From: an uncultured Bacteroidota bacterium
GTDB lineage: Bacteria; Bacteroidota; Bacteroidia; Bacteroidales; VadinHA17
Direction: 5' to 3'
DNA length: 44,194 bases
NCBI GenBank assembly: GCA_903844815.1
Contig: CAIMVD010000046.1
Span: 1-44,194, forward strand
Shown: positions 1,962 to 44,194 of the stretch, piece after piece
Position numbering within the stretch: the first letter of the stretch is position 1
Layout of the letters: the number at the start of each line of letters is the position of its first letter
The notes under the pieces: generated by a model
The model's input: the letters and a program-made list of their open reading frames with translations, nothing else
Databases searched by the model: none
Told to the model about the DNA's origin: nothing
Position numbers and translations under genes: made by a program

Positions 1962-2026
1962 TAAACAATAGTTATCTCAAAAAATGTATTTATAGGAACT
2001 GTTTCCTGAGATTTCTGTTTGGCAAA

Positions 2027-4615: not shown

Positions 4616-4633
4616 AGTTATTCAATTTTAAAG

Positions 4634-24200: not shown

Positions 24201-24630
24201 GAGTATTACCCGAGTAGCAAACATAGATATCAAGCCAGCCATCACCGTTTATGTCAACCATTGAAACCCCTGTAGTCCAGTCACCTCTGCCTTCTGTTCC
24301 GGAAGGAGCGGAAATATCTTCAAATTTCCAGTTTCCCTTGTTTAAATAAAGTTTATTACTAACCATATTCCCGGTGAAATATACATCAGCGAGCCCGTCA
24401 TTGTTAATATCTCCTGTTGCAACACCGCCGCCGTTGTAGTAATACTCGTTTTTTAAAATATTGTTTTGCATTGATTCCTGAATGTCATTCCGGAATCCTA
24501 TCCCGATTTTACCAGGATCAAGAGTGGTAAACTGTTTATCAGATGAGGATGTGTTGCACCCGTATAAGGCCATGAAGGCGCCGGTAATAAACAGAATTGT
24601 GTATTTATATGTTTTTTTATTTTTCATCAT
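21238..24630 (-). CDS. giant FG-GAP/VCBS repeat lipoprotein with ASPIC/UnbV domain
   Basis: A paralogue of the protein at 8055, about 1130 residues from the first ATG (24630); the longer frame needs a TTG start. The lipobox is ALYGC, with the lipid-attachment cysteine at about residue 25. An N-terminal FG-GAP block begins with YYYNGGGVATGDINNDG, an ASPIC/UnbV segment (GTGAKIWLE, ARGYLSSSEPVITLGIG, VRWPDGRQ) lies at about 550-630, and a second FG-GAP block follows. It ends with the conserved motif of this set (GNFYPFNPKIGMSDASMG). It follows the third giant gene after about 50 bp, so the two probably form one transcript. Function is unknown; a surface role with the SusC/SusD system upstream is inferred. 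Confidence 0.9.
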   Translation of the reverse strand: MMKNKKTYKYTILFITGAFMALYGCNTSSSDKQFTTLDPGKIGIGFRNDIQESMQNNILKNEYYYNGGGVATGDINNDGLADVYFTGNMVSNKLYLNKGNWKFEDISAPSGTEGRGDWTTGVSMVDINGDGWLDIYVCYSGNTPGEGYNQAVIRNQPQRANQLFINKGCEPGGVPVFKESAKDYGVDAIGTFSTQAYFFDYDIDGDLDMFLLNHANTFYAPFINTKRLRNLRHPYFGNKLYRNDNMKFMEVSKEAGIHGGGLNFGLSASLSDINMDNWPDIYVTNDYDEQDYCYINNKNGTFREVSHDILGHMSKSSMGSDIADINNDGYADIFVLDMLPEDNHRQKLLRGQDNYERYQLAVDSGFHHQYLRNMLQLNRGLASDSLPRYSEIGQFSGISNTDWSWSALLVDLDNDGLRDIFITNGYLRDITNMDQMTHTSEVYRKAASNKENVDYLKLIKELPSSKLQNYVYQNSTGIKFINKTDDWGLNQKTVSNGAAYADFDNDGDYDLVTNNLNQQVTVLRNNQSEKLINNFVRIKLTGSKLNSQGTGAKIWLETEDKTIFQEAYTARGYLSSSEPVITLGIGSSEHIKSLKVRWPDGRQTLVNDQVPNQLIKMVYPESQFEINSDLALPNKTLLSDVTLSSGVKYRSAAKDVVDFKNEGFLYYQLSKLGGHLATGDVNNDGNDDIFFGGAAGQSAELYYGTDKGTFTLSMNQPWSVKGPSEDMKPLFFDADGDGDLDLYVVSGGNAPESNSPQSQDRLYLNDGKGVFRDITSALPAEYVSGSCAVTADYDKDGDLDIFVGGRHLGPGYPHSPESFILRNESARNNIKFVNATPEINSSLSHIGMVTDAQWTDYDKDGWPDLIIVGEWMGINVFRNVNGKLIEQLMPSLEKSEGWWTTIRQSDLDGDGDMDYLAGNAGLNSQIKASANEPVELYAYDFNNDGRLDPVLCYFIQGKSYPMSSRDDLLKQINQLSNKFPDYLSFADATINDMFDRKLLDKSLKLSAYIMESCWIENVDGVLVLRKLPDLVQFSCVNAFLNYDFDGDGKQEILAAGNFYPFNPKIGMSDASMGTLLEFSNDSLSVKNNLLSPFWLNGDIRDMGLLSFKNGRKMVVVSKYNDTPGVFSINP

Positions 24631-24681
24631 ACAGCGCAATTTAACTCAAATATAATTCCTGTTTATTCTTGCATTATGCAT

Positions 24682-28421: not shown

Positions 28422-30200
28422 TTAGTAACCAGGATTCTGGACCAATAATTTATTACGGTTCATTTCGTCCTGTAAAATGGGCAGGAAGTTGGTTCTTTCA
28501 TTCCATCCACGGACCTGACCAACCTCACGGGTAGCATATTCTACTCTTCCGTCAGAAAATTCGTCAATAACGATACCTTTGGTTTGTTTATTCTGTGTTG
28601 TTGAGCCAATTAACCAACGTCTTACGTCGAAGTAACGTGACTGTTCAAAAGCCATTTCTATTCTTCTCTCATTTCTGTATCTCTGTCTCAGGGCATCACC
28701 TGTTTCGGTAATGGCAGGCATACCTGCTCTGGTACGAAGCTTATTGATATATAATTTTGCTTCTGTATCCTGATTAAGCTCGATACATGCTTCAGCATAG
28801 TTCAGATAAATTTCTCCAAGACGGAAGAAAGTCCAGGGAACTTCCTGGTTTGCTCCATCATATACAAATTCAGGATCGACAGTAATATCAATTGCTTTAC
28901 GCAGGTAGTATCCTGTATATCCGCCGTTCCATGTTTGCTGCGGGCCTTCACGTGTATCCAGACCCGGGGTCTTGGCACTGTTTCTATCTAATCCTGCATA
29001 TACGGTTCTGATACTGATTAACCCGATAGGATCGTTAGCAACCAAAGTTGCAGGGCGTTTACGCCATGGTGCTTTGTCGTAAAGAATAGTAGCATAGAAA
29101 CGTGGATCGCGATTCACGTATGGAGCTTTTGCTTGTGTTGGGTTGCTCCAGCTGAATTTTGTTCCGTCTTTCATTTCATAATCGTCGACCAATGCCTGAA
29201 TAGGAGTATTACCGGCCCATGCAGCATAACCGTTTGGTCCATTGAATAATGGTGAGTGGGTGTTGCTGTCTTCTGAATCCCAGCCATTTGATTTAATGAA
29301 ATACCTGCTGAAGATATGTTCAGGACTGGATTTCTTAATAAAAAGAGCTGTATAATCGGTGAAAGGATCACCTGTTGTTTGCTCAAGTGAAAACGCATTC
29401 AGGTCAATAACTGCTTTGGCGGCATCCCTGGCTGCAGTCCATGCGGCTGCCCTGTCACCGGGAATAGTAACATACTCAGGATTTGGATAGCTGCTATACC
29501 AAGCAACATGGGTTAAATCACTTGCAGCCCAAAGTAATATTCTGGACTTAATAGACATTGCAGCTGCCTTGTTTGCTCTTCCAAGAGCTGCACCTTCCTG
29601 CTTAACAGGTAATAGAGCAGAAGCCTCATCGCAATTTTTGATGATATAGTCTACGCATTCTTTCAGGGAATTCCTTGGAACTTCAAATTTATCAGTCAAA
29701 CCATAAGTTTTAGTTATGATTGGAACGCCACCATGGGTTCTGACAAGGTTATGGTAGTAAAAAGCAATCAGGAAATGAACTTCGCCTTTTAACCTGTTTC
29801 TCCATTCTTCATCTTTAAAGGGAACCTTATCGATATTTTCGAAGAACATATTAGCATTTCTCAAATAGCCGTAAACATTAGGCCATCTGTATGCATTCTG
29901 GTTATCGGCTGACCATTGACCTATGTCGGAAGGAGTTATAAGGGAAGCCACAACCTGGTTTGTTCCATAATTATGGATAAAGTGACTCTCATCGGTCATT
30001 GAACCAACTTCGCATTCATGATGTCCGTGGCCTATGCCGCGGTACATCTCATTCACAAACAGCTCAACAAGGTTCGGATCAGACCATACGGCTGTCTGAC
30101 TAAGACTGTTGGCCGGCTTTGTGTCGAGAAAATCCTGATTACACGCGTTGATCAGAAACGCTAACAATACAATAGGTAGTATTTTTGAAATAATTTTCAT
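28422..30200 (-). CDS. SusD/RagB family outer-membrane glycan-binding lipoprotein
   Basis: A 592-residue SusD-type lipoprotein, lipobox LINAC (Cys20), followed by the usual DFLDTKPANSLSQTAVWSDP start. It carries the RagB signature near the C-terminus (YLNYAEACIELNQ, NKLRTRAGMP, RRIEMAFEQSRYFDVRRW) and ends QNPGY. It follows its SusC after 13 bp and is closed by a strong terminator. At 592 residues it is longer than the first SusD, with the extra length in the middle. Ligand unknown. Confidence 0.95.
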   Translation of the reverse strand: MKIISKILPIVLLAFLINACNQDFLDTKPANSLSQTAVWSDPNLVELFVNEMYRGIGHGHHECEVGSMTDESHFIHNYGTNQVVASLITPSDIGQWSADNQNAYRWPNVYGYLRNANMFFENIDKVPFKDEEWRNRLKGEVHFLIAFYYHNLVRTHGGVPIITKTYGLTDKFEVPRNSLKECVDYIIKNCDEASALLPVKQEGAALGRANKAAAMSIKSRILLWAASDLTHVAWYSSYPNPEYVTIPGDRAAAWTAARDAAKAVIDLNAFSLEQTTGDPFTDYTALFIKKSSPEHIFSRYFIKSNGWDSEDSNTHSPLFNGPNGYAAWAGNTPIQALVDDYEMKDGTKFSWSNPTQAKAPYVNRDPRFYATILYDKAPWRKRPATLVANDPIGLISIRTVYAGLDRNSAKTPGLDTREGPQQTWNGGYTGYYLRKAIDITVDPEFVYDGANQEVPWTFFRLGEIYLNYAEACIELNQDTEAKLYINKLRTRAGMPAITETGDALRQRYRNERRIEMAFEQSRYFDVRRWLIGSTTQNKQTKGIVIDEFSDGRVEYATREVGQVRGWNERTNFLPILQDEMNRNKLLVQNPGY

Positions 30201-30213
30201 ATTAACCGTTTTT

Positions 30214-33200
30214 TTAGAAAGTTAAATTAAAGCCCATATTAAACAGCCTTCTCTGTGGATAAGCAGATCCTGAATTATCGGCATTTTCCGGGTCAAATAC
30301 TTTATACTTATCCCAGGTAAACAGGTTCATTGCACTAATAAAGACCTGAGTATATTTAATACTGGCTTTTTTAAGTAATGTCTCAGGCAAAGTATAGGAT
30401 AATCTTACGTTTTTTGCACGAAGGTAGTTTGTACTTCTCATGAAATGTGTATTATCTCCTGAAATCCAGTATTGATCTTCACGGTTATAGGCGCGGGGTT
30501 TTGAAGAATTCGGATTAGCGGTAGTCCATCGTCCGTCGGCAAAATCGTGAAGATAGTTGCCAAATTCACCTGAAGGAACCTGAATGTACTGCTCAGCTCC
30601 TGTTGAACCTTGCATAAGTATGTACAATTCCAAACCTTTCCAGGCCATGTTAAAATTAACACCTCCAACGAAGGTGGGGAAATTACTTTTTGTAGTTTGT
30701 ACCCTGTCGTCAACGGTTATTGCACCGTCCTTATTAACATCCTCAAACCTGATATCACCCGGACGGGCGCCTGGCCAATGAGGATAAGCATCAACAGCTG
30801 CCTGATCTTTGAATACGTCAAGGGCGTTGTATAACAACTGGCCGCCCATTGGCTTGCCTGTTGATACCTGCCAATCAAGTCTTCCGGCCGGCTCATCCCA
30901 GAAAAGGACTTTGTTTTTAGCATAACCTCCGTTAAAACCCAGGCTCCAGCTAATATCTGAACCAATAGTATTTGTATATGACAACGATAAGTCAAACCCC
31001 TTGTTTTCAACTTCTCCAATGTTCTGATCAGGAGGTGAAAAACCAGCTGACAATGGGATAGAAGCATTAGCAGGATACAAAATATCGGTACGCAGGTTCT
31101 TGAAAAGGTCAATTTCAAAATTTACATGATTATTAAATAATGATCCTTCAAGACCTATGTCACTATTGTGAGCAATTTCCCATGATACACCCTGATTTGC
31201 TACCGATGAAGGACGCAAACTTTTGGTATTGGTGTTCTCGTTGAAGATGTAGCTTCCTCCAAATTCAAATAATGCCAGATACTGATAAGGGTCAATTTTA
31301 TCATTACCCATTGTACCATATGATCCCCTTAATTTTAGTCTGTTAACAAAGGAAACATTAGCCATGAAATTTTCTTCACTCAGTACCCAACCTACTGATA
31401 CGCCAGGGAAAAATCCCCAACGGTATGCAGGGTCAAATATTTGTGAACCATCATACCTCCATACAAACTCAGCAAGATATTTACTCTTATAATCATAATT
31501 TACCCTTCCAAAATAATTCAAACGAGCTCTTTGTTCCATCGATCCGTCGTTGGTCTTGCTTGTATTGTTAGCTCCGAAGCGAAGTTGTTCCAACTGGTCA
31601 GTTACAAACTCATTTCTGTATGCGCTAAACCAATATGAATCAATTGTTTGTCTCTCAATACCTGCCATGATAGCCACGTTGTGGTCACCGAATTTCTTAA
31701 CATAGTTGGCACGCATGTTACCGGTAAATGACTTGCTTCTTGAACTATTCTGCGACAACTGCGGAGCTGCAATACCTTTGTTTGATCCAACCAGATCAGG
31801 CTCGCCATTTGCATTCATTGTAACCTTGTCCCAGGTATATAAGGTCCATGGTTTTTTCCAGTTCTTATATTCTCTGAATGACTGGTCAAATGCTGCGTTT
31901 GCAACAATTGAAAGACCTTTCACGGTAAACAGGTCAGTAAGATCAATTCCAATATTGCTCTGGAAGATGTAGTTGTTATCATGGTCATAACCTGTAATAT
32001 CAGTAGATGTAACGGCAGGGTTCTGTCCTCCTTCAAAGTCAGGTCCGGGCAGACGTGTTTTGTCAGTACTTCTTTGTGGCCAGAAAGCAGGCTCAGTAGG
32101 CTTCATTCCTATTAAATATCTGAATGTGCTGCCGCCACGTGTTTGAGTGTATTTCCTTGCTTCCTGTCTTCCTGATACGTCAAATCTCAGTTTAATATTT
32201 TTTCTGATCTTAGCATCAATGTTCGACCTGAAGTTATATTGGTTGTAACCAACTGAACTGTTTTTGAAATAGCCATCTTCCTTTGTTGTTCCTCCGGAGA
32301 TAAAATAAGTTACACCGTCTGCATTACCACCTGATAATGTAATGTTTGTATTGTTCTGTGGTGACCAGGGTTTGATTGTCTCACCATACCAGTCAGTATT
32401 CGGATGACCGAACGGATCAGAGCCATCACCAAATTGTTTAATATCCTGAGCGGTATATCTTGCAACCCTTCCTGAGTATTCATCGAGTTCATTCAATATG
32501 GTTGCATATTCCTGTGCATCAAGTACGCTTGGCAATCTGGTCGGCTGGTTCATACCATAATTCATCTGAACGCCAATTTCAGGAGCGCCTGCTTTACCAC
32601 GTTTGGTTGTTACCATGATAACACCGTTTGCAGCCTGTGCGCCATAAATAGCAGCAGAAGCATCCTTCAGAATAGTTATCGATTCTATATCATTAGGATT
32701 AAGTCTGGCAAAACCGCCATCCCTGTTTGCAATACCATCAATTACAATAAGGGCTGTGGAATTATTCAGAGTATTAATACCCCTGATTCTTAGATCGGAA
32801 TCATCGGCACCGGGTTCACCGGAACGGTTAACAACCATCAAACCTGATATTTGACCTACCAGTGAGTTTGATATGTTGTTCGTTGGAGCTTTTTTAAGAA
32901 TAACACCCTGTACAGCGGAAACTGCACCGGAAATTGTTGCTCTTTTCTGAACTCCATAACCTGTAACAACTACTTCTCCCAATTCGCTTACGTTTGGAAC
33001 AAGTACAACATCTACTGTTGTTTGTTTACCAACAGTAATTGACTGAGGTAAATATCCAATAGATGTGAACACAAGGATTGCATCAGGGCCGGGAACTGTG
33101 ATTGTGTATGTCCCGCCCATATCGGTCATAGCACCTGTTACAGTACCTTTTACCACGATATTTACTCCGGGGAGGGCGCCCTCGGAAGCAGATGATACTT

Positions 33201-33312
33201 TTCCTTTAATAGTACTTTGTTGGGCATTGGAAATACCGATTCCACAACAAATGAGAAGAAGTATTAATAAACTTCTCCTCCAGATAAATAAAGAGTCTCT
33301 TAGATTTCTCAT
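30214..33312 (-). CDS. SusC/RagA family TonB-dependent outer-membrane transporter
   Basis: A 1032-residue SusC-type importer. The signal peptide covers about residues 1-30 (ending SNAQ). A carboxypeptidase-regulatory-like domain follows (KGKVSSASEGALPGVNIVVK), then GEVVVTGYGVQKRATISG, the plug (STALIVIDGIAN, TILKDASAAIYGAQAANGV) and a barrel ending in NMGFNLTF. A candidate promoter lies 130 bp upstream (33444-33474). It forms an operon with the SusD gene downstream. Confidence 0.95.
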   Translation of the reverse strand: MRNLRDSLFIWRRSLLILLLICCGIGISNAQQSTIKGKVSSASEGALPGVNIVVKGTVTGAMTDMGGTYTITVPGPDAILVFTSIGYLPQSITVGKQTTVDVVLVPNVSELGEVVVTGYGVQKRATISGAVSAVQGVILKKAPTNNISNSLVGQISGLMVVNRSGEPGADDSDLRIRGINTLNNSTALIVIDGIANRDGGFARLNPNDIESITILKDASAAIYGAQAANGVIMVTTKRGKAGAPEIGVQMNYGMNQPTRLPSVLDAQEYATILNELDEYSGRVARYTAQDIKQFGDGSDPFGHPNTDWYGETIKPWSPQNNTNITLSGGNADGVTYFISGGTTKEDGYFKNSSVGYNQYNFRSNIDAKIRKNIKLRFDVSGRQEARKYTQTRGGSTFRYLIGMKPTEPAFWPQRSTDKTRLPGPDFEGGQNPAVTSTDITGYDHDNNYIFQSNIGIDLTDLFTVKGLSIVANAAFDQSFREYKNWKKPWTLYTWDKVTMNANGEPDLVGSNKGIAAPQLSQNSSRSKSFTGNMRANYVKKFGDHNVAIMAGIERQTIDSYWFSAYRNEFVTDQLEQLRFGANNTSKTNDGSMEQRARLNYFGRVNYDYKSKYLAEFVWRYDGSQIFDPAYRWGFFPGVSVGWVLSEENFMANVSFVNRLKLRGSYGTMGNDKIDPYQYLALFEFGGSYIFNENTNTKSLRPSSVANQGVSWEIAHNSDIGLEGSLFNNHVNFEIDLFKNLRTDILYPANASIPLSAGFSPPDQNIGEVENKGFDLSLSYTNTIGSDISWSLGFNGGYAKNKVLFWDEPAGRLDWQVSTGKPMGGQLLYNALDVFKDQAAVDAYPHWPGARPGDIRFEDVNKDGAITVDDRVQTTKSNFPTFVGGVNFNMAWKGLELYILMQGSTGAEQYIQVPSGEFGNYLHDFADGRWTTANPNSSKPRAYNREDQYWISGDNTHFMRSTNYLRAKNVRLSYTLPETLLKKASIKYTQVFISAMNLFTWDKYKVFDPENADNSGSAYPQRRLFNMGFNLTF

Positions 33313-33677: not shown

Positions 33678-35294
33678 ATGAAAAAATTCATTGCAGCATT
33701 CCTGTTAATCCTTATATATTCAGGGTGTCAGCCGGAAATTAAGGGCCAAAATATTGAAAAATTGCCGCGAAGCATTCCCGAACTGGAAGGAGTTCTGTCA
33801 TCGGGGATTAACGATTTTTTAAATGCAATAGATACCGGCCGGCAGGAGATCCATAGCTTTATGTTTATAAGGCACGGAAAAGTCATTGCCGAAGGGTGGT
33901 GGGGTCCCTATGGTCCGGAGTACAGGCATATTATGTATTCTGCCAGCAAAACTTTCACTGCAACAGCTATTGGTCTGGCTGTTACAGAAAACAGGTTGAA
34001 ACTTACCGACAAAATAACTTCATTCTTTCCCTATTCATTGCCCGATGCGATCGGAAATAATATGAGAGAGCTTACCGTTGAGAACCTCTTAACCATGTCT
34101 GTGGGTCAGGATCCTGCTGGTATGGGAGGAGGCAGCGAAGAAGACTGGATTGCCAGCTTTATTGCAAATGAGCCTGTACATAAACCCGGAACGGTTTTCA
34201 AATATAATAATATGGCAACTTTTATGCTCTCGGCAATAGTTCAGCAGGTAACCGGGCAAAACCTGTTTGACTACCTGATGCCAAGAGTTTTCAATCCTCT
34301 CTCTATCCGCGGAATAGACTGGGACAGAAATCCTCAGGGGATTGATATGGGAATGATAGGACTAAGGCTTCGAACCGAAGACATGGCAAAATTCGGACAA
34401 TTATTAATACAGAAGGGTAAATGGAATAACAAACAACTTATTCCTGAGTCATGGGTAAAAGAAGCTACATCTTTCAAAATCGAAAGTAATGATCCTTCGA
34501 ATAAGGCTCCAAAAGAGCTCAACGACTGGGCACAGGGTTATTGTTATCAGATGTGGAGGGGAAGGAATAACACAGTACGGCTCGACGGAATGGGAGGCCA
34601 GTTTGTAATCATGGTTCCTGATAAGGATGCAATAGTTGTTCTTACATCAAATGCAAGAAGTACACAGGAAGAGCTGAATATGGTGCACAAATATCTGATT
34701 CCTGCTATTAAATCGGATAAGGCTGTTACTCCTGATCCTGAAGCTTATAATAAACTGAAGGAACGGCAAAAGGCTTTGACTTTGAGGCCATTGTCTGTCG
34801 TAAAACCCGAATCGGAGATAATGAAGGAAATATCGGGCAAGGAATTCATCCTTTCTGTTAACGATTTTCAGATTCAATCGGTCTATTTTGATATTGATAA
34901 CAATGTTTGCAGCTTTGGAGTGAAGAGAAATAACCAGGTGTCATACATTAAAGCCGGTTCAGGAAGCTGGAAAACAACAAACTCAAAGCTTACATCCCTA
35001 CTGACTCTTTCCAGAAATGTGCAGTCGAAATCCATTGATGCCAATTATTCAGTGCCACAGGGTACCGTTAAAGTGGGAGCAAGCTATACCTGGACTGATC
35101 CCAGTACACTTGAGATAACAGCACGGTATGTAGAAGAAAGTCTTGGAAGCCAGACAATAGAATGTAAATTTTCGAAAGTGAACGGAACTGTCGGAGTTAC
35201 TTTAGGTGCCAAAGCAGTACCGGTAATGACAGGTGCCCAGGGAAGAACTCAAGTGCCTGCTATATTAAGAGGAGTCATGGTAGAACTTAATTAA
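33678..35294 (+). CDS. serine hydrolase lipoprotein (beta-lactamase/class C-like fold)
   Basis: A 538-residue lipoprotein (lipobox IYSGC, Cys17). The penicillin-binding-protein-like catalytic motifs are visible: SASK at 88-91 (Ser88 and Lys91 of SxxK) and YNN at 176-178 (YxN). The third motif is replaced by a GMGGQF segment in the region RLDGMGGQFVIMVPD. This pattern is common in esterase-type members rather than true beta-lactamases. A C-terminal extension of about 170 residues, probably beta-rich, follows. It is the first plus-strand gene before the apiose cluster and 129 bp upstream of the apionate-lactonase-like gene. It might remove ester groups from a pectic substrate at the cell surface; membership of the same pathway is inference. 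Confidence 0.85.
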   Translation: MKKFIAAFLLILIYSGCQPEIKGQNIEKLPRSIPELEGVLSSGINDFLNAIDTGRQEIHSFMFIRHGKVIAEGWWGPYGPEYRHIMYSASKTFTATAIGLAVTENRLKLTDKITSFFPYSLPDAIGNNMRELTVENLLTMSVGQDPAGMGGGSEEDWIASFIANEPVHKPGTVFKYNNMATFMLSAIVQQVTGQNLFDYLMPRVFNPLSIRGIDWDRNPQGIDMGMIGLRLRTEDMAKFGQLLIQKGKWNNKQLIPESWVKEATSFKIESNDPSNKAPKELNDWAQGYCYQMWRGRNNTVRLDGMGGQFVIMVPDKDAIVVLTSNARSTQEELNMVHKYLIPAIKSDKAVTPDPEAYNKLKERQKALTLRPLSVVKPESEIMKEISGKEFILSVNDFQIQSVYFDIDNNVCSFGVKRNNQVSYIKAGSGSWKTTNSKLTSLLTLSRNVQSKSIDANYSVPQGTVKVGASYTWTDPSTLEITARYVEESLGSQTIECKFSKVNGTVGVTLGAKAVPVMTGAQGRTQVPAILRGVMVELN

Positions 35295-35321: not shown

Positions 35322-35344
35322 GTGGTTAGGGCTCCCCTAACCAC
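35322..35344. other. perfect stem-loop between the serine hydrolase and apnL-like genes
   Basis: GTGGTTAGGG (35322-35331) and CCCTAACCAC (35335-35344) make a perfect 10-bp stem with a three-base loop. No T-run follows on either strand, so this is not a classic terminator. It could be an operator palindrome or a transcript-processing hairpin. Confidence 0.5.
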
Positions 35345-35423: not shown

Positions 35424-37367
35424 ATGGGAAATATTAGAGAATTCGTTACTTCCTTACCAGGTGAGACCCGGTGGCATGGAAACCATAAAGAATCAGGCAA
35501 CCGGATGGTCCTTAATGCCGGGAATATATCATTGCTGTATGAAAATGGGAATCTGAGATATATTTCAGTGAATAAACTCGAAATCCTCAGGATGATTTAT
35601 TCTGCCGTGCGCGGCAGAGAATGGCTGACTATCAAACCTGTAATTTCAGGGGAGGAGTTTGATATACAGAAGGATTCATTCAGGATAAAATTTGAGGCGC
35701 ATTACCTGATGGGAGAGATAAACTTTCAAGCCCATTATTCAATTATTGGCAATTCTGACAACTCTTTGATCTTCAAATTTGAAGGTGAAGCTTTGAATTC
35801 TTTTGAGAAGAACAGGATTGGTTTGTGCGTACTTCATCCTGTTGAATCAGTTAAAGGAGAGAAATGTGTGGTTGTTCATACTGACAATAAACCGGAAGAG
35901 CTTGTATTTCCTTATTATATAAGCCAGCATCAGCCATTTAAGGATATAAAATCGATGATATGGAATAGATCCGGTTTTAAATGTTCAATCGATTTTTCCG
36001 GTGATGTTTTTGAATCAGAAGACCAGCGTAACTGGACAGATGCCTCGTATAAGACCTATTGCACCCCGTTGGAACACCCTTTTCCTGTCAGGGTTGGAAA
36101 AGGCGAAAGAATTTCTCAGAAAATTGAGTTAAAAGTTCTTGCAGCAGATTTTTCTGACGGAAATGTGTCGGATGAGATTTCAATGTCAATCAACCGTGAA
36201 CCAATTCTGCCGGTTCCCCGCATCGGGATCGGACGTTCAAGCCGGCCTCAGCCCCTGGAAGATGAAGAGGTAAGTTTATTGAGGCAAATTAAATTCAGCC
36301 ATTATCGTATTGATGTTTATTTGTTTAAATCCGATTGGGAATCAGAACTTGAAAACGGTTTAAGGGAAGCTGCTTTACTCGGTTACAAAACTGAGCTGGC
36401 TCTTTTTCTGGATGATAATTTTTCAGTTCATATTCAGGAATTCTTAAAAGCTATTAGGAGGTTAAAATATGATATTGATATTGTCCTGCTTTATCATAAA
36501 ACAAGTTTGTCATCACCCGACAGCATAACTGACATTGTTGTCCCGCTTCTAAAAACTGCTTTGCCCGGGGTCATTATCTGTTGCGGAACAAATGCAAATT
36601 TTGCCCAGCTTAACAGATGCAGGCCTGAATCGGCCTTTTTCGATAATCTCTGTTATTCAATTCACCCGCAGGAACATGCTTCAGACAACCTTACGCTTAT
36701 TGAGAACCTTCAATCCATGAGGGATACAGTTGAGAGTGCCGGATCGTTTTCCCCGGACAAGGGAATATGGGTATCCCCGGTCAATATTCAACGGAGATTC
36801 AATGCGAATGTTACAGCATATGAACAGCCTGATAAGGGAATGAAATTTCCGTTGCAGGCTGACAGCCGCCTGATGTCATTATTTGGCGGATGCTGGGCAG
36901 CCATTAGTCTTAAATATCTCATTCATGAAGTTGTTAACGGGATAACATATTTCGAAACAGTTGGTGAGAGAGGTATCATTCAGGGCGATAATGATTCACA
37001 GTGGCCTGGTGAATTTCAGACGTGTAAGGGCATGATTTTCCCTGTTTATCATGTATTTAAATTTATACTTGGCAATGAAAATTACGGTCTGGTCTGGTCT
37101 GCTTCCTCACACCCATTGCAGGTGGATTCTTTGGTAATGTCTGATAATGACCGTCTGAAAATGATATTGGTGAATTTTTCAACTGTGGCAGAAATAATAA
37201 GCATAAAAGGATGGCAGGGGGAACTAAATGTAAAAACATTGAATGAGTTAAGTTATATTGAAGCTGTATGTGATGCTGACTGGCTGGCAAATGTTGAATC
37301 AATTATAGTTAATTCTGGCAAGCCTCTTTTTTTGGAACCCTGTTCTATAAATTTCATAGAAGGGTAA
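35424..37367 (+). CDS. apnL: D-apionate lactonase-like protein
   Basis: A 647-residue protein without a signal peptide, hence cytoplasmic. The layout fits an N-terminal beta-sandwich (about 1-240), a TIM-barrel-like middle (about 260-560) and a C-terminal beta domain. Segments such as GNLRYISV, NRIGLCVLHPVE, YISQHQPFKDIKSM and EHPFPVRV remind me of the ApnL family, which hydrolyses D-apionolactone to D-apionate in Bacteroides. I call it mainly on this resemblance and on the neighbours (GH140 apiosidase, Gfo/Idh dehydrogenase, oxidoisomerase-like and decarboxylase-like genes). A general TIM-barrel glycoside hydrolase is the main alternative. The GntR gene starts 42 bp downstream. Confidence 0.6.
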   Translation: MGNIREFVTSLPGETRWHGNHKESGNRMVLNAGNISLLYENGNLRYISVNKLEILRMIYSAVRGREWLTIKPVISGEEFDIQKDSFRIKFEAHYLMGEINFQAHYSIIGNSDNSLIFKFEGEALNSFEKNRIGLCVLHPVESVKGEKCVVVHTDNKPEELVFPYYISQHQPFKDIKSMIWNRSGFKCSIDFSGDVFESEDQRNWTDASYKTYCTPLEHPFPVRVGKGERISQKIELKVLAADFSDGNVSDEISMSINREPILPVPRIGIGRSSRPQPLEDEEVSLLRQIKFSHYRIDVYLFKSDWESELENGLREAALLGYKTELALFLDDNFSVHIQEFLKAIRRLKYDIDIVLLYHKTSLSSPDSITDIVVPLLKTALPGVIICCGTNANFAQLNRCRPESAFFDNLCYSIHPQEHASDNLTLIENLQSMRDTVESAGSFSPDKGIWVSPVNIQRRFNANVTAYEQPDKGMKFPLQADSRLMSLFGGCWAAISLKYLIHEVVNGITYFETVGERGIIQGDNDSQWPGEFQTCKGMIFPVYHVFKFILGNENYGLVWSASSHPLQVDSLVMSDNDRLKMILVNFSTVAEIISIKGWQGELNVKTLNELSYIEAVCDADWLANVESIIVNSGKPLFLEPCSINFIEG

Positions 37368-37409
37368 TTTTTTGTTTTTAGATTTTTGCATCAGAAATTT
37401 ATCCGATCC

Positions 37410-38420
37410 ATGGCAATCAAAATAAAAATATCAGACCAGACAAGTATCCCAAAATACGAACAGCTTGCCAATGAGATTATAAGACATATCCGGGCAGGAC
37501 GCCTGGCGTTGGGCGATAAGTTGCCATCTATTCATGAAGTCACCTATAATTATGATATTTCGAGGGATACCGTTGTGATGGCCTATAAAGTACTTAAAGA
37601 ACGAGGCATCATAAGTGCTAAACACGGCAAGGGTTTTTACGTTTCTTCCACAACATTTTCAGGTAAACTGAAAATATTTCTGCTTTTTGATGTCATGAAT
37701 GGATATAAAGAGGTGCTGTACAGATCATTAGTTGATTCCCTTGGACCGGATTACCAGGTTGATATCTATTTTCATTATTATAATATTAAGGTGTTTGAGC
37801 AGTTAATCGCCAACAATTTAGGCAAATACGGATTTTACGTCGTTATGCCTCATTTTAATGAAGATGTGTCGGAGGCTGTAAATTTAATTCCCAGGGATAA
37901 ATTGCTCATCATTGATAAAGATATTTTATCGGCTGAGTCAGATTATGCTGCTGTATACCAGGATTTTGAAAATGATGTTTACGATGCTTTGAAGGAAGCG
38001 GGCCCTTATCTGAAAAAATATTCCAACTTAAAGTTTATTTCCAATCATAATTTCCAGTTCATACCTGATGGAATGGAACGTGGATTCAATAATTTCTGTC
38101 GTGAACATAAAGTAAAGCATAAAGTATTTAATGATATAGATTCATCCGTTCCATCAAAAGGAGATGCATTTCTTGTTGTTTCAGATCATGACCTTATCGA
38201 GCTTATTAAGATCTCATTGAAGAAAAAATGGGAGCTTGGGAAGGATATTGGTATTGTGTCATACGACGATACCCCATTAAAAGAAATCCTCTCGGGTGGT
38301 ATTTCTGTAATTTCCACAGATTTCAGGAAAATGGGAGAAACTGCTTCCGGAATGATTAAAAACAGAACATTCATCAGGAAGGCAAACCCGTATATTTTCA
38401 TTCAGAGAAATTCATTATGA
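37410..38420 (+). CDS. GntR-family transcriptional regulator with sugar-binding-like C-terminal domain
   Basis: A 336-residue regulator. The frame extends upstream to a TTG at 37386, but the ATG at 37410 begins the conserved KIKISDQTSIPKYEQLANEI segment and is the likelier start. Residues 1-75 are a GntR winged helix (GDKLPSIHEVTYNYDISRDT, LKERGIISAKHGKGFYV). Residues about 85-330 resemble the LacI/periplasmic-binding-protein sugar-sensing domain (KIFLLFD, IGIVSYDDTPLKEILSGGISVISTD). The DDTP-LKE-L--GI-VISTD pattern is typical of LacI-type dimer cores. It lies inside the apiose cluster, just before a permease gene with its own candidate promoter and palindrome, and probably controls that cluster in response to apiose or an intermediate. 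Confidence 0.88.
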   Translation: MAIKIKISDQTSIPKYEQLANEIIRHIRAGRLALGDKLPSIHEVTYNYDISRDTVVMAYKVLKERGIISAKHGKGFYVSSTTFSGKLKIFLLFDVMNGYKEVLYRSLVDSLGPDYQVDIYFHYYNIKVFEQLIANNLGKYGFYVVMPHFNEDVSEAVNLIPRDKLLIIDKDILSAESDYAAVYQDFENDVYDALKEAGPYLKKYSNLKFISNHNFQFIPDGMERGFNNFCREHKVKHKVFNDIDSSVPSKGDAFLVVSDHDLIELIKISLKKKWELGKDIGIVSYDDTPLKEILSGGISVISTDFRKMGETASGMIKNRTFIRKANPYIFIQRNSL

Positions 38421-38513
38421 CAGTTTTGAATTAAGCTGTTGCGTTCACATCCGAAATAAGGTGAGCGGATAAAATAATTTTTACTTAATAGTGAGTTTTA
38501 TTTGTTTTCTTTT

Positions 38514-38553
38514 TATATTTGGCATAACAGTACATAACACTTATAGTGCTGTA
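38514..38553 (+). promoter_or_regulatory. candidate promoter -7 box with overlapping/adjacent operator palindrome
   Basis: TATATTTG at 38514-38521 matches TAnnTTTG exactly; a good TTTG at -33 is missing. Directly downstream, CACTTATAGTG (38538-38548) is a perfect inverted repeat around a three-base centre, nested in a wider ACAGTAC...GTGCTGT pair (about 38527-38552). A repressor bound there would block transcription of the permease and downstream genes. The neighbouring GntR protein is the obvious candidate. Confidence 0.45.
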
Positions 38554-38591
38554 TAAAAAGGATATATTTATTAATTACTCAATCTTATTTT

Positions 38592-39593
38592 ATGGTATTG
38601 GTTCAGAACTATACTTTAGCCGTTTTTCTCTGCGCCCTTGCTATGATTTGCTGGGGTTCATGGCAGAACACTCAGAATCTTATCGGAAAGTCCTGGAGGT
38701 TTGAACTTTATTACTGGGATTTTTCATTTGGGATTCTGCTGTTTGCGTTACTGATGGCATTTACCTTCGGAAGCATAGGTAGCGAAGGAAGGAGTTTCAT
38801 TCCCGATCTGAAACAGGCTGATGCAGAAAGCCTGTTATCTGCAGCGATAGGAGGTGTCATATGGAATGCAGGAACCCTTATGCTTGTAGCTGCCATCTCA
38901 GTTGCCGGGATGTCAGTGGCCTTTCCGATAGGTGGCGGAATAGGATGGACCCTGGGTATTTTAATTAACTATTTAAGTAAGCCGGAGGGAAATCCTGTTT
39001 TTCTGTTTGGAGGTACTGCATTTATAGTATTGGCAATTTTTTTAAGTATGATTTCGTACAGGAGACTTGCAGTTCATCAGAAAAAAACAACTTTCAAAGG
39101 GATACTTCTTTCTCTCTCTGCGGGGTTGTGTATTGCTTTCTTCTACAGGTTTGTCGCTTCTGCGCTTGCTTCCGACTTTACACCTGCCGATGCCGGAAAG
39201 ATCAGTTCGTACACTGCCGTTGTATTTTTTTCTGCAGGTGCCCTGGTCTGCACAGGTTTTCTTAACCCGGTATTTATGTCACGACCCGTTCAGGGTCCCC
39301 CGGTAAGGATGGCCGATTGGTACAAAGGCGGACCGAAGACTCATCTGCTCGGCATGCTCGGCGGTGCAATATGGTGCCTGGGTAATTCGGTAAGTTTTAT
39401 GTCGGTGGGAGCAGCAAGTCCGGCTATTTCGTACGGGCTGAGTAATTCTGCCCCTGTTGTAGCGGCAATTTGGGGAATTTTTGTCTGGAAAGAGTTCCGC
39501 GGCGCTCCAAAAGGCACCAGCCTGATTCTTGCGCTTATGTTTGCTTGTTACCTGGCCGGACTGGTGTTAATTGTATACTCCAGATTTGCATAA
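38592..39593 (+). CDS. DMT-superfamily sugar permease (GRP/RhaT/ureide-permease-like)
   Basis: A 333-residue integral inner-membrane protein with about ten hydrophobic segments. It starts with a [13 protein letters not shown] motif in helix 1, contains [13 protein letters not shown] after helix 4 and [32 protein letters not shown] in the second half, showing the usual two-fold repeat of DMT transporters. Bacteroidota proteins of this kind are annotated as GRP-family or ureide-permease-like transporters. It lies 19 bp upstream of the GH140 gene and within an apiose-degradation cluster, so uptake of D-apiose (or an apiose disaccharide) across the inner membrane is the likely role. Substrate is inferred from context only. 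Confidence 0.8.
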
Positions 39594-39612
39594 TACATTT
39601 AATAAGATTGTT

Positions 39613-41046
39613 ATGAAGAAATTATTTATTTCAGTTCTCATTTTTCTGACTTCAGTGGGAGCGCTTAAGTGCCAGGATAAAAAATGGCTGGGACCATCGG
39701 TCGATTTAAAGCACGGAAGTTTAAAGGTTTCAGGGAACAAGCACTTCCTTGTATTTGAAGACGGAACTCCCTTTTTCTATCTGGGCGACACAGGATGGGA
39801 ACTTTTTCATCGTCTTAATAAGGAAGAGACTGAAAGATATCTTGAAAACCGGCGTGCAAAAGGGTTTACGGTAATTCAGGCTGTGGCACTTGCAGAACTT
39901 GACGGACTCAATACTCCAAATGCGGAAGGGAATAAACCTCTCATTAACAACAACCCGCTTACACCAAATGAAAAGTACTTTGAGCATGTTGACTGGGTAA
40001 TAAAGAAGGCAGAAGAAAAAGGAATTTTCATCGGGCTGCTTCCTGCCTGGGGCGATAAATGGAACAGGAAGTGGGGTGTGGGACCTCAGGTATTCCATCC
40101 TGAAAATGCAAGGGAATACGGGAAATTCCTGGGGCAACGCTATAAAAATTATCCAAATATTATATGGATTATGGGAGGCGACCGTCCAATTGAACTGGAA
40201 ATACACAGACAAACGATTGCTGCTATGGCTGAAGGGTTACGTGAAGGCGACGGAGGCATTCACGTAATTAGTTTCCATCCTACGGGAGGATCAGGTTCAT
40301 CGCAGAATCTTCATAATGAACCCTGGCTCGATTTCAATATGCGGCAGAATGGTCATAGTCTGAGTTACACTGAGAGATATTACATGACAAATGAAGATTA
40401 CAAGGTCGAACCCTCAAAGCCGGTTATTGATTCGGAACCTGTTTACGAGGACCATCCTGTAAATTTTAATGCGGATGCAAACGGGCATTCCACGGCTGCT
40501 GATGTTCGCAGACCACTCTACTGGGACCTTTTCAGCGGAGCTTTCGGACATACCTATGGTCACCATTCGGTCTGGCAGATGTGGACCCCTTCACGTGAAC
40601 CGATAAATCGTCCCCTTATGCCATGGTATGAGGCCATCGATCAGCCCGGAGCGGGACAGATGACGTACGGTCGCCTTTTGATTGAGTCGCGGCCGTTCCT
40701 TACAAGGATTCCGGATAACTCAATCATTGTGCCTGATAAGATAACATCTGCTGTGCCTGGTAACGGACTGTACAGGTATGTTGCCACACGCGACCAGGAA
40801 GGGACTTACGCCATGATATATGTTCCGGTGGGCAGGGAATTTACTGTACGGATGGATGCAATAAATGGGAAAGAAATTGTGGCATGGTGGTTCAATCCCC
40901 GGAACGGAGAAGCAACCGGAATCGGGAAATATCCGAACACCGGCACGCAAACATTCAATACTCCAACGCCTGGTGAGAATCTTGACTGGATCCTCGTGCT
41001 CGACGATGCCTCCCGGAAATATCCTGCTCCCGGCTCAAGTAAATAG
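39613..41046 (+). CDS. GH140 family apiosidase (DUF4038)
   Basis: A 477-residue exported glycoside hydrolase. The open frame begins earlier (39571), but the ATG at 39613 starts a proper signal peptide ([17 protein letters not shown]), so I use it. The catalytic TIM barrel has the DUF4038 opening [20 protein letters not shown] and barrel motifs [11 protein letters not shown] (Asp190) and [10 protein letters not shown] (Glu275); these two acids are the likely catalytic pair by analogy with the characterised GH140 enzyme BT1012. A C-terminal beta-sandwich follows (about 385-465). GH140 enzymes release D-apiose from pectin (rhamnogalacturonan II). The gene opens a tightly packed run (gaps of 5, 5 and 8 bp) with three enzymes for apiose breakdown. 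Confidence 0.85.
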
Positions 41047-41051
41047 TAATT

Positions 41052-41861
41052 ATGCAGTTAGGCTTATCATCATATACTTATACCTGGGCAGTTGGAGTAC
41101 CGGGCTCACCACCCGAAAATCCTCTTACTCCCAAAGGACTTATTGACAAGGCATTCAATGCCGGGATAAAACTTGTTCAGATTGCCGATAATATGCCCCT
41201 TGAATCGATTGGAGAAGATGAACTCATCAATCTTGAAAAATACGGTGCGGGTAAAGGGGTAAAAATCGAGATGGGAGGCCGCGGCCTTACTCCTGAACAT
41301 ACTATGAAATGCCTTCTGGCAGCAGATTTTCTTCACTCTCCGATACTAAGAATGGTGATCGACTCAGCAGGTTTTGAACCCGGATTAGATTCAGTTACCG
41401 GAATTATAAGTGATCTGTTGCCTGAATTCAGGTCGAGGAAAATCAGGCTGGCAATTGAAAACCATGATCGTTTCAGGGCACGCGAATTTGAAAAGATCAT
41501 CAAATCTGCTGACAGCGAATGGGTGGGGATCTGCCTTGACTCTGTAAATTCCATGGGCGCCGGCGAAGGATTTGAAGAGGTAGCCAGGATTTTGATTCCT
41601 TATACAATCAACCTTCATATTAAAGATTTCACGATCCGAAGGGTCTCTCATAAAATGGGACTTCTGATTGAGGGTACCCCGGCAGGAAAGGGAATGCTTA
41701 ATATCAGTGAACTGGTGGAAAAGCTTTCAATTCAGGGAAGTTGCAACAGTGCCATTCTCGAGCTTTGGACACCTCCTGAAAAAAGTATTGGGGAAACTAT
41801 CATTAGGGAAGACGCATGGGCCTGTGAAAGCATTGAATATCTTGAATCTATCTTAAAATAA
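41052..41861 (+). CDS. oiaC: xylose-isomerase-like TIM barrel, probable 3-oxo-isoapionate decarboxylase
   Basis: A 269-residue cytoplasmic protein of the sugar phosphate isomerase/epimerase (AP endonuclease 2-like) superfamily. The four expected metal ligands are visible: Glu136 (LAIENHDRF), Asp163 (GICLDSVNS), His189 (NLHIKDF) and Glu237 (AILELWT). OiaC, the 3-oxo-isoapionate decarboxylase that yields L-erythrulose, belongs to this superfamily. Its place between GH140 and the apiose-dehydrogenase-like gene, with 5-bp gaps on both sides, favours that role. Alternatives are a sugar epimerase or the isomerase-like partner of 3-keto-glycoside pathways, which is also found next to Gfo/Idh genes. 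Confidence 0.65.
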   Translation: MQLGLSSYTYTWAVGVPGSPPENPLTPKGLIDKAFNAGIKLVQIADNMPLESIGEDELINLEKYGAGKGVKIEMGGRGLTPEHTMKCLLAADFLHSPILRMVIDSAGFEPGLDSVTGIISDLLPEFRSRKIRLAIENHDRFRAREFEKIIKSADSEWVGICLDSVNSMGAGEGFEEVARILIPYTINLHIKDFTIRRVSHKMGLLIEGTPAGKGMLNISELVEKLSIQGSCNSAILELWTPPEKSIGETIIREDAWACESIEYLESILK

Positions 41862-41866
41862 GAAAA

Positions 41867-42901
41867 ATGGCTAAACTGAAATTTGCAGTTCTGGGTTGCG
41901 GTTTCTGGTCGAAATTCCAGATCGGAGCCTGGAGCGAACTGGAGGATGCAGAACTCACAGCAGTCTATAACCGGACACTTACAAAAGCAGAAAAAATTGC
42001 TGAATATTTTAAAGTGCCACGTGTGTATGATAACCCGGAGGAGTTGTTTTTAAAAGAAAAACCTGATTTTGTCGACATTATTACTGACGTTGATACTCAT
42101 GCTCATTTTGTTGAAATGGCAGTACGACACGGAGTTAAATATATTATCTGTCAGAAACCCATGGCTCCGGATTTTGAGACGGCTAAGAGGATGGTAAAGA
42201 CCTGCCATGACGCCGGAGCAAAACTATATATTCATGAAAACTATCGCTGGCAGGCTCCTGTGAGAAGATTTAAACAGATAGTTGATTCAGGAGTCATCGG
42301 AAAACCATTTAAGGCAAGAGTCTCTTTTCTTTCCGGATTTCCGGTATTTGACAACCAGCCCTTCCTGAGAGAACTCGATCACTTTATTCTTACCGACATG
42401 GGGTCACATGTACTCGACGTGGTCAGGTATCTGTTCGGGGAATGTGATGAATTATGGTGCAGGATCAGGGCCGTAACTCCCGGCATTAAGGGAGAGGATG
42501 TTGCTGTAATAATGATGGATATGAAAAACGGAATGCCGGTATATACCGAAATGTCGTATGCTTCTATTGTTGAGCATGATACCTTCTCAACTCTGAATAT
42601 TTTGGTTGAAGGAGAGAAGGGATCGGTATTTCTTGGGCCCGATTTTGAGATCAGGACAACTACCCGTACGGGAACTGATTCTGAGTTTGTCAGGTTCCCT
42701 TCATACCCGTGGGCTGATCCGGCTTATATTGTCAATCATGAAAGCGGAATTCATATCAATAAAAATATTCTGGATGATATCAGCGGCAGAATAGTAGCGG
42801 AGAATACCGGTGCAGATAACCTTGAAACAGTGAGGCTTATCTGGGCAAGTTACAGGTCTGCTGAATCGGGCATGAAAATTAGGATTGAGGATTTTAAATA
42901 G
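41867..42901 (+). CDS. apsD: Gfo/Idh/MocA oxidoreductase, probable D-apiose dehydrogenase
   Basis: A 344-residue cytoplasmic NAD(P)-dependent dehydrogenase without signal peptide. The N-terminal Rossmann fold has GCGFWS (10-15). The conserved lysine lies in CQKPM (Lys97), and the second-domain catalytic pair is Asp177 and His181 (TDMGSHVLD). Unlike the exported Gfo/Idh protein at the left end it has no Tat signal and no low-complexity insert. Known D-apiose dehydrogenases (apsD, forming D-apionolactone) are Gfo/Idh proteins found with apionate-pathway genes, which fits this neighbourhood. Family call is firm; substrate assignment depends on context. Confidence 0.75.
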   Translation: MAKLKFAVLGCGFWSKFQIGAWSELEDAELTAVYNRTLTKAEKIAEYFKVPRVYDNPEELFLKEKPDFVDIITDVDTHAHFVEMAVRHGVKYIICQKPMAPDFETAKRMVKTCHDAGAKLYIHENYRWQAPVRRFKQIVDSGVIGKPFKARVSFLSGFPVFDNQPFLRELDHFILTDMGSHVLDVVRYLFGECDELWCRIRAVTPGIKGEDVAVIMMDMKNGMPVYTEMSYASIVEHDTFSTLNILVEGEKGSVFLGPDFEIRTTTRTGTDSEFVRFPSYPWADPAYIVNHESGIHINKNILDDISGRIVAENTGADNLETVRLIWASYRSAESGMKIRIEDFK

Positions 42902-42909
42902 ATAAAACC

Positions 42910-43743
42910 ATGAAAAGGATAAAAGTTACTTTAGTTGGTGCAGGCGGAAAAATGGGAATGCGTCTGACGCATAACCTGCATAACTCAGATTATGAGATGT
43001 CTTATCTTGAAGTAAGCCAGCAGGGGATTGAAAAACTTAAGGTGAAGGGAATTTCAGTGTCAGACGCGGCCTCTGTTATTCCTGTGGCCGATGCGGTAAT
43101 ATTTGCTGTGCCCGATGTTGCCCTGGGAAAAGTTACTGCAGAATATATTCCACAAATGAGAAAGGGAGCCCTGGCAGTGACTCTCGATCCGGCAGCAGCA
43201 CTTGCCGGCAAGCTTTTCGAACGGGCAGATATTGCTTATTTCATAACTCACCCTACCCATCCCTCTGTTTTTAACTGGGAGCCCGTTGAGGAAAACATGA
43301 ATGATCATTTCGGAGGAGTTGCGGCAAAACAGTCCATAGTCTGTGCCCTGATGAGCGGCATAATGGAAGATTATATCCTTGGCGAAGAACTTGCCTCTGC
43401 TTTTTACGCACCTGTTTTACGGTCGCACAGGATTACTGTAGAACAGATGGGGCTTCTTGAACCCGCCCTCGTTGAAACACTTGCGTCAACTTGTATTTAT
43501 GTCATAAGTGAAGGGCTTGGCGAAGTTATAAAAAGAGGCGTTCCTGCTGAGGCCGCAAGAGACTTTCTGCTCGGGCACCTTAGAATTCAGATGGCAGTAT
43601 TATTCAATGAACTTCCGGGTGCAGTTTTTTCAGATGCTGCAAATAAGGCCCTTCAGAGAGGGCTAAAGGAATTTATTAAGGATGACTGGCGGAAAGTGTT
43701 TGAACCTGATAATGTTAAGGATCAGATAGAATCAATAACTTAA
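42910..43743 (+). CDS. apnO: Rossmann-fold dehydrogenase, probable D-apionate oxidoisomerase
   Basis: A 277-residue NAD(P)-dependent protein. A GAGGKMG nucleotide-binding loop lies at 10-16, followed by a helical C-terminal domain in the manner of the 6-phosphogluconate dehydrogenase-like superfamily. The motif THPTHPSVFNWE (about 113-124) with paired histidines and the later HRITVEQMGLLEPAL stand out as likely active-site elements. I assign it to D-apionate oxidoisomerase, which turns D-apionate into 3-oxo-isoapionate, because of fold, length and the flanking apsD-, oiaC- and apnL-like genes. It follows the dehydrogenase gene after 8 bp. Confidence 0.65.
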   Translation: MKRIKVTLVGAGGKMGMRLTHNLHNSDYEMSYLEVSQQGIEKLKVKGISVSDAASVIPVADAVIFAVPDVALGKVTAEYIPQMRKGALAVTLDPAAALAGKLFERADIAYFITHPTHPSVFNWEPVEENMNDHFGGVAAKQSIVCALMSGIMEDYILGEELASAFYAPVLRSHRITVEQMGLLEPALVETLASTCIYVISEGLGEVIKRGVPAEAARDFLLGHLRIQMAVLFNELPGAVFSDAANKALQRGLKEFIKDDWRKVFEPDNVKDQIESIT

Positions 43744-43817
43744 TTGATTCCCGGGGATATTTTTTATACTGCTAATTCTGATTGATTCAGTTTTCTTGAA
43801 AATTTCTTAAATAATTC

Positions 43818-44194
43818 ATGATGAAAAAAACTTTGCTTATCGGACTTCTTGTTGTTTATTCAGGGTTACTGTCGGGACAACAAAAGCCATTTGAAGTAGA
43901 CCTGAAGGCTGACAGCAAAGTATTAATGACCGATTCCATACAATCTGCCATTGACAGGTGCGCTGCCGCAGGGGGAGGAATTGTCCGGTTTAATGAAGGG
44001 ATTTATCTGACAGGAGGAATTCAGTTGAAAAGCAAAGTTACGCTGCATCTGGAAAAAGGTGTTGTTCTTCAGGGAAGCGATAAATATACTGATTATAAGA
44101 ACGATGCTTTTATCTATGGCCGTGACATTTCTGAAATTGCAATAGAGGGTGAAGGAGCTATTGACGGAGTGGATTGTTACAATCCGAAAGGAGA
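43818..44194 (+). CDS. GH28-like pectinase / pectate-lyase-superfamily protein, 3' end beyond window
   Basis: The first 125 codons of an exported protein (ATG 43818; a second ATG at 43821 is equally possible). The signal peptide runs to about residue 20 (LLSGQ). Then comes the beta-helix opening typical of glycoside hydrolase family 28: IQSAIDRCAAAGGGIVRFNEG, YLTGGIQLKSKVTLHLEKG, then SDKYTDY and IAIEGEGAIDGVD. These strands correspond to the first coils of polygalacturonase-like enzymes. The catalytic aspartates lie beyond the window. It starts 74 bp after the oxidoisomerase-like gene in the same direction, and a pectin backbone hydrolase would match the apiosidase. Confidence 0.8.
   Translation, partial: MMKKTLLIGLLVVYSGLLSGQQKPFEVDLKADSKVLMTDSIQSAIDRCAAAGGGIVRFNEGIYLTGGIQLKSKVTLHLEKGVVLQGSDKYTDYKNDAFIYGRDISEIAIEGEGAIDGVDCYNPKG

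Follow-up and report, generated by a model that had tools for sequence, protein, structure and literature searches.

The window analysed here is a stretch of 44,194 nucleotides, contig CAIMVD010000046.1 (C46 of genome G000), from an uncultured bacterium of the Bacteroidales family VadinHA17 (Bacteroidota), and its last part holds a gene cluster that we connect with the catabolism of D-apiose. The genome comprises 6.37 Mb in 411 contigs and is 97.81% complete and 3.78% contaminated. Seven consecutive open reading frames (ORFs), all on the + strand, span 35424-43743 and encode, from 5' to 3', an ApnL-like protein, a GntR-family regulator, a permease, a glycoside hydrolase of family 140 (GH140), a TIM barrel, a Gfo/Idh enzyme and a Rossmann enzyme with a PGDH_C domain (Table 1). 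An earlier reading, made from the letters of the window and here called the sequence-only reading, had described this run as a near-complete apiose cluster headed by GH140. All seven frames lie where it placed them and match the families that it named, while the GH140 gene turned out to be the fourth of the cluster. The gaps between the GH140 and TIM-barrel genes (5 bases), the TIM-barrel and Gfo/Idh genes (5 bases) and the Gfo/Idh and PGDH_C genes (8 bases) are so short that the spacing is operon-like. An eighth gene follows the seven and is interrupted by the contig end.

Table 1. Features of the putative D-apiose cluster and of the gene that follows it (positions in the window)
Feature	Position	Strand	Details
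Putative ApnL-type D-apionolactone lactonase, distant homologue	35424..37367	+	647 aa; NCBIfam NF049900
GntR-family regulator with LacI/periplasmic-binding-like sensor domain	37386..38420	+	344 aa; PF00392 52 bits, PF13377 38.6 bits
Candidate operator CATAACA-N3-CATAACA	38523..38539	+	10-bp direct repeat immediately 3' of TATATTTG box
RhaT/ureide-permease-type (DMT) sugar carrier, presumed apiose importer	38592..39593	+	333 aa; PF07168 Ureide_permease 90.7 bits, PF06800 Sugar_transport 35.5 bits
Predicted GH140 apiosidase with C-terminal Collagen_bind_2 domain	39616..41046	+	PF13204 Apiosidase, PF12904
Xylose-isomerase-like TIM barrel, candidate OiaC	41052..41861	+	269 aa; PF01261 57.6 bits
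Predicted ApsD-type D-apiose dehydrogenase (Gfo/Idh/MocA)	41867..42901	+	344 aa; PF01408/PF22725, PDB 5uhw
Predicted ApnO-type D-apionate oxidoisomerase (PGDH_C Rossmann)	42910..43743	+	277 aa; PF16896 198.4 bits, PDB 5t57
GH28-like pectinase gene, 5' part only	43818..44192	+	3' open at contig end

The GH140 protein is the sole PF13204 match found in the genome of the window, and it passes the curated cut-off of this family over the whole catalytic domain (400.7 bits against 26.5; profile positions 3-319 of 320), with a further match to PF12904 (86.6 bits). These scores refer to the frame counted from 39571, which overlaps the permease gene. Translation more likely starts at the ATG at 39616, and from there the N-terminus resembles a signal peptide by eye. 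The best PDB chain is 8t9w, named "Apiosidase" (E 6.3e-139), and in the alignment to it GGDR keeps its Asp and EPxYED its Glu, which we take to be the catalytic pair of GH140. Like the apiosidases of this family with solved structures (8t9w; 3kzs/5msy), the protein matches over its full length, but unlike the known ones it adjoins downstream oxidative enzymes. By these matches it is very likely that the protein acts as an apiosidase which releases D-apiose from pectic material. As for the interrupted eighth gene, its fragment had no match in the Pfam search, and it is 69% identical to the product of 3862-4854 on a sister contig (L025), which itself matches PF00295 Glyco_hydro_28.

For the Gfo/Idh enzyme, the best PDB match is 5uhw (E 2.1e-71), far ahead of the next chain (E 9.1e-24), and its AlphaFold2 model (mean predicted local distance difference test score, pLDDT, 94.9) superposes on 5uhw with a template modelling (TM) score of 0.95 at 37% identity. 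The title of 5uhw gives an oxidoreductase from Agrobacterium radiobacter and names no further function; we take it to be ApsD. The presumed catalytic residues K97, D177 and H181 are invariant across 26 sequences, that of the window included. The Rossmann enzyme matches, besides PGDH_C, the solved structure 5t57 (E 9.1e-85), presumably the ApnO of Cupriavidus, and is 51% identical to a protein inside an ApsD-ApnL-OiaX cluster of Ensifer, whose neighbours are ApnL and OiaX by NCBIfam.

The ApnL-like protein had no match in the Pfam search, and its only NCBIfam match is NF049900 (233.1 bits, E 6.1e-69), covering residues 18-593 of 647. The Ensifer ApnL is 27% identical to the protein of the window and reaches 816 bits against the cut-off of 750; its gene run also includes ApsD-like and ApnO-like genes along with OiaX by annotation. 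When the window protein was aligned with 34 other family members, it retained all 36 columns that are invariant in them and differed in three of the 66 columns conserved at 90%, keeping 63. Residue 395, beside the invariant N397-R398, is Gln in the window and seven others and Glu in 27 of the 35 sequences. In the fold comparison of its AlphaFold2 model (pLDDT 91.3) the nearest PDB folds are glycoside-hydrolase-like, with TM scores of at most 0.41 by query length and 7-11% identity, and no mechanism came out of it. Thus the assignments of the GH140, ApnL-like, ApsD-like and ApnO-like proteins are each backed by a family or solved-structure match. The check by family models suggested along with them could be made in part: NCBIfam models exist for ApnL, OiaK and OiaX; of the 10 proteins scanned, those related to ApsD, ApnO or the TIM barrel match no model so named.

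The TIM barrel is the candidate for the 3-oxo-isoapionate decarboxylase (OiaC), an enzyme characterised from Ramlibacter and other sources. It had no match in the NCBIfam search, and a single-sequence PDB search gave none at E 0.001. To place it among its relatives, we used an alignment of 11 relatives to scan a genome collection; of 261 stretches with the pattern, 210 encode a relative, and the best 80 were kept as loci. Together with the window and three plasmid relatives they form an alignment of 84 rows, in which the TIM barrels of L074 and L075 are identical. E136, D163, H189 and E237, which we take to be the metal ligands of the TIM-barrel superfamily, are the same in all 84 rows, and so are Q43, D46, R100, C161, N166, K191 and W239. 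It turned out that an ApnO relative lies within 10 kb of the TIM barrel in 60 of the 80 loci (within 3 kb in 58), ApsD and ApnL relatives in 43 each and GH140 in 29; at least one of the ApnO, ApsD and ApnL relatives is present in 67. In the window, the TIM-barrel and ApnO-like genes are one gene apart. The hosts belong to Bacteroidota, Balneolota, Chloroflexota, Verrucomicrobiota, Acidobacteriota, Actinomycetota, Armatimonadota, Planctomycetota, Pseudomonadota and Bacillota, and several of the closest relatives come from metagenome-assembled genomes of Bacteroidales. Dyadobacter, Larkinella and Flexithrix are hosts of the cluster that have been cultured, and the Flexithrix cluster also has an OiaK-like gene.

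For instance, plasmid pPAT9B04 of Pantoea sp. At-9b (L008) carries a TIM barrel 27% identical to that of the window, which follows a triosephosphate-isomerase-family gene and precedes an ApnO relative; a Dak kinase gene and rpiB are close by. These neighbours are the set expected for decarboxylation to L-erythrulose, and the annotation of this stretch (16.8 kb) shows neither OiaX nor OiaK. As in the window, the TIM barrel is near an ApnO relative, here directly beside it; unlike the window, the plasmid cluster has the kinase, triosephosphate-isomerase-family and rpiB genes, and no GH140 is annotated in it. Judging from its gene neighbourhood across the loci and the conserved putative metal site, the TIM barrel is likely OiaC, and this is the weakest link of the pathway. 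The sequence-only reading had already named it so; the ApnO neighbourhood and the site fit this, whereas the OiaK-like and RuBisCO-like genes that stand beside the TIM barrel in some loci, described below, speak against it.

Within the family, 117 genomes were searched at E 1e-30. The TIM barrel is found in 15 of them and ApnO in 15; 12 have both, three the TIM barrel alone and three ApnO alone (Fisher p 2.5e-11, with kinship uncorrected). On 14 contigs from the other family genomes that bear the TIM barrel, 11 have a GH140 relative (at least 52% identity) adjoining it, of which one is cut by the contig end and one split into two frames, and eight of these 11 also hold the ApsD-ApnO pair. The permease belongs to the cluster of the sister contigs as well. 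The gene set recurs in sister genomes and across phyla and exceeds chance, and the conserved neighbourhood in the sister genomes and the 80 loci backs the oxidative apiose pathway that had been proposed. A wider sample of 395 Bacteroidota genomes gave ApnO in two (the genome of the window and G235) and GH140 (E 1e-30) in 40, both ApnO carriers included. Provided that both surveys drew the same 395 genomes, as their handles agree, 38 of the 40 GH140 carriers are without ApnO at E 1e-30, which suggests that far fewer Bacteroidota use apiose oxidatively than carry GH140.

To the 5' side of the permease gene, in the gap after the GntR gene (for which ATG at 37410 is an alternative possible start), TATATTTGG is followed by CATAACAGTACATAACA, a 10-bp direct repeat; the TATATTTG box before the repeat is presumably the Bacteroidota -7 element. 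The motif emerged from a comparison of the window, L068 and L071. Allowing at most one mismatch, a search of both strands of the 84 loci (1.2 Mb) gave three occurrences of the repeat pattern, against 0.6 expected from simple shuffles, and all three are exact and lie 5' of a permease gene with a GntR gene directly upstream (L068, L071 and L078). Since L068 and L071 gave the motif, the three loci do not test it independently; L078 comes nearer to doing so. The 80 loci contain 16 permease genes, 15 of them usable (L077 has no upstream sequence). An exact site was found in three of three cases where a GntR gene of the same strand immediately precedes the permease gene, in none of two with a divergent GntR gene and in none of 10 without a GntR relative, where L076 has 85 Ns in the 200 bases and L094 has a split frame, so that its upstream part may be intragenic. 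The permease genes without an exact site show at least three mismatches. In the whole 6.37 Mb genome the pattern is perfect at one site and off by a single base at two, and the reversed control pattern gives two.

Combining these results with known apiose biochemistry, from which the names and the order of the reactions come, we regard it as quite probable that the cluster is a regulated unit for scavenging and oxidising D-apiose, with its reactions, its substrate and the direction of regulation as predictions. Outside the cytoplasm, GH140, probably together with the GH28-like enzyme, would free D-apiose from pectic material, and the carrier of drug/metabolite transporter (DMT) type would import it. 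The Gfo/Idh enzyme would then oxidise D-apiose to D-apionolactone, the ApnL-like protein would open the lactone, the ApnO-like enzyme would oxidise and rearrange D-apionate to 3-oxo-isoapionate, and the TIM barrel would decarboxylate this to L-erythrulose. GntR may bind the direct repeat in the promoter and repress the operon from permease to ApnO until an inducer is present. It is very likely that we see a well-formed oxidative apiose cluster of a pathway kind already known, with the last steps missing from the genes found, and the sequence-only reading was mostly right in its interpretation.

Several results, given in this paragraph and the next, weigh against this interpretation. The ApnL-like protein fails the curated equivalog cut-off of NF049900 (233.1 against 750 bits) and is therefore filed as a distant homologue and not as an ApnL equivalog; its residues suggest that it probably works like ApnL. 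Its distance from the curated family, and the 37% identity of the Gfo/Idh enzyme to 5uhw in a family whose substrates are held to vary widely, would also fit a cluster that degrades another branched or furanosidic pectin sugar by apiose-family enzymes shifted in specificity. This seems very improbable to us, because GH140 is close to a chain named Apiosidase, its relatives adjoin the TIM barrel in 11 of 14 family contigs and the catabolic families recur together across loci. Among the 80 loci, 13 are without ApnO, ApsD and ApnL, four of them on pieces shorter than 6.2 kb. Two family genomes (G032 and G033) have an ApnL-permease-GH140-TIM cluster with no ApnO match and, at E 1e-40, no ApsD match. 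We set this gap aside as evidence against OiaC, since G058 has the same short cluster with the pair on another contig, so that loss from the draft genomes is possible for G032 and G033. A GntR relative above 200 bits is present in nine of the 80 loci, with the exact operator in only three of them; the GntR proteins of the other six are 44-46% identical and stand in other arrangements, one of which (L082, Balneolaceae) shows by eye TATATTTG and an AATAACA direct repeat before GH140. That the genes came to stand together by chance, or form a remnant with no joint function, is hardly credible: the contig does end within the next gene and the GH140 frame is split in one sister genome (L027/L068), but gene order is conserved in sister contigs and recurs across phyla, and the genes of the window are tightly spaced with intact reading frames.

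The role of the TIM barrel is where the evidence is most divided. OiaK-like and RuBisCO-like genes join it in seven of the 80 loci (L079, L080, L098, L110, L117, L121 and L126), the three sharing one gene run in the four that were listed gene by gene (L079, L080, L098 and L110), and an OiaK-like gene joins it with no RuBisCO-like gene in one further locus (L107). Such genes would be redundant if the TIM barrel were nothing but a decarboxylase. What's more, relatives in Rhizobium and Paracoccus adjoin split transketolase halves and a short-chain dehydrogenase/reductase (SDR) gene and have no annotated ApnO, the one in Paracoccus also being near a dihydroxyacetone kinase gene. A profile search of solved structures gave "Art22" (E 9.7e-12) and then, weakly, the L-ribulose-5-phosphate 3-epimerase UlaE (6e-4) along with further chains of sugar isomerases or epimerases, and PF01261 is understood to include many isomerases and epimerases. 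The Pantoea row sits on a very long branch of the tree, which makes its kinship to the TIM barrel of the window unsure. Together these points would suit a route that is oxidative but in which the TIM barrel isomerises or epimerises apiose, 3-oxo-isoapionate or erythrulose, with decarboxylation spontaneous or made by another enzyme. We consider this unlikely. The Pantoea stretch is without annotated OiaX and OiaK, and the search of the genome of the window yielded no RuBisCO-like protein. Besides, in the five of the seven mixed loci that were scanned, the RuBisCO-like proteins score 451-492 bits against the OiaX cut-off of 700, near the 473 bits of the Cupriavidus protein, so they may belong to the transcarboxylase/hydrolase branch and work in parallel. 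Two of the OiaK-like proteins score 412 and 541 against a cut-off of 700.

When it called the cluster near-complete, the sequence-only reading passed over the end of the route. The genome of the window, at 97.81% completeness, has no match to Dak1 (PF02733), a search which left other kinase families aside, and this too counts against the interpretation above; LerK is, we assume, a Dak-type kinase. The genome has two RpiB-family matches. There is no RuBisCO_large (PF00016) match in it (OiaK was not searched genome-wide), which makes the OiaX branch unlikely and speaks against the OiaX/OiaT route. In the Shouchella locus L128, a kinase above the ribulokinase cut-off lies near the TIM-ApnO pair. 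After clustering of the unassigned neighbours (clusters in at least four loci), ABC-transporter parts, SDR proteins, regulators (recognised by eye) and others were obtained; one cluster holds FGGY kinases, the L128 kinase included, and is present in four of the 80 loci, none labelled Bacteroidota. The kinase, isomerase and RpiB of Pantoea and the transketolase halves of Rhizobium gave no match at E 1e-10 when they were blasted against the 84 loci. By analogy with the neighbourhoods in Rhizobium and Paracoccus, one may guess that L-erythrulose is used by a transketolase. It is a tentative and rather doubtful idea that the TIM barrel marks an undescribed apiose catabolism of several phyla, either with a step other than plain decarboxylation, because some operons retain it next to OiaK-like and RuBisCO-like genes, or with a kinase-free feed of L-erythrulose into transketolase, as suggested by the transketolase-linked relatives.

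The oxidative D-apiose pathways of proteobacteria were reportedly set out by Carter et al. (2018, Nat Chem Biol 14:696), with ApsD, ApnL and ApnO followed by OiaC or by OiaK and OiaX/OiaT. Two papers describe a RuBisCO-like branch of D-apiose catabolism (PMC6302742) and growth on D-apiose for an example from Rhodobacteraceae (PMC11747546). Like the proteobacterial pathways, the window has clustered ApsD, ApnL and ApnO relatives, with a TIM barrel where OiaC is expected. Unlike them, it belongs to a Bacteroidota host, holds GH140 and a DMT-type carrier inside the operon (the importers in the proteobacterial stretches examined are of ABC or TRAP type) and has a GntR/LacI-type regulator with its own direct-repeat operator candidate, and its genome yielded neither a RuBisCO-like protein nor a Dak1 kinase. 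Judged by their titles and the opening of their abstracts, the papers listed in a search of open full texts give no account of an oxidative apiose route in Bacteroidota, which does not prove that there is none. The locus ties an apiose-cutting enzyme to apiose-oxidising enzymes in what is apparently one regulated Bacteroidales unit. Worth following are the operator candidate, the apparent scarcity of the pathway among Bacteroidota and the operons that combine the TIM barrel with OiaK-like and RuBisCO-like genes, and the locus is compact enough for direct tests of the role of the TIM barrel, the fate of L-erythrulose and the ligand of GntR.

Some neighbouring features were considered as parts of the cluster and rejected. 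Relatives of the SusC/SusD pair at 28422-33312 and of the serine hydrolase at 33678-35294 did not turn up in the 14 sister contigs surveyed, and a hairpin at 35322-35344 upstream of the ApnL-like gene, considered as an operator, was taken as the terminator of the upstream gene. The serine hydrolase (+ strand), of beta-lactamase fold, scores 352 bits with the NCBIfam model of 3-succinylated cholic acid synthase, whose cut-off is 800. In sister genome L027 (the same contig as L068), the GH140 frame is broken into two pieces at 5680-6989, and an extra gene with a weak glycoside-hydrolase-5 match lies between the TIM barrel and the Gfo/Idh gene. Another 10-bp direct repeat, TACTCTACTG twice, was seen by eye in L096 just upstream of 8931, before a GntR gene that immediately precedes the TIM barrel.

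Elsewhere in the window, three long look-alike proteins (8055-11381 on the + strand, 21238-24639 and 24682-28227 on the - strand) carry repeated DxNxDG-type motifs, FG-GAP/VCBS-like by eye, and sit among three SusC/SusD-like pairs, also by eye. At 387-2854 (- strand), a Gfo/Idh protein adjoins a 3-keto-disaccharide hydrolase (PF06439), suggesting a separate 3-keto-glycoside route, and 17856-19850 (+ strand) encodes a fusion of a Peptidase_S9-like part and a GDSL lipase/esterase part.

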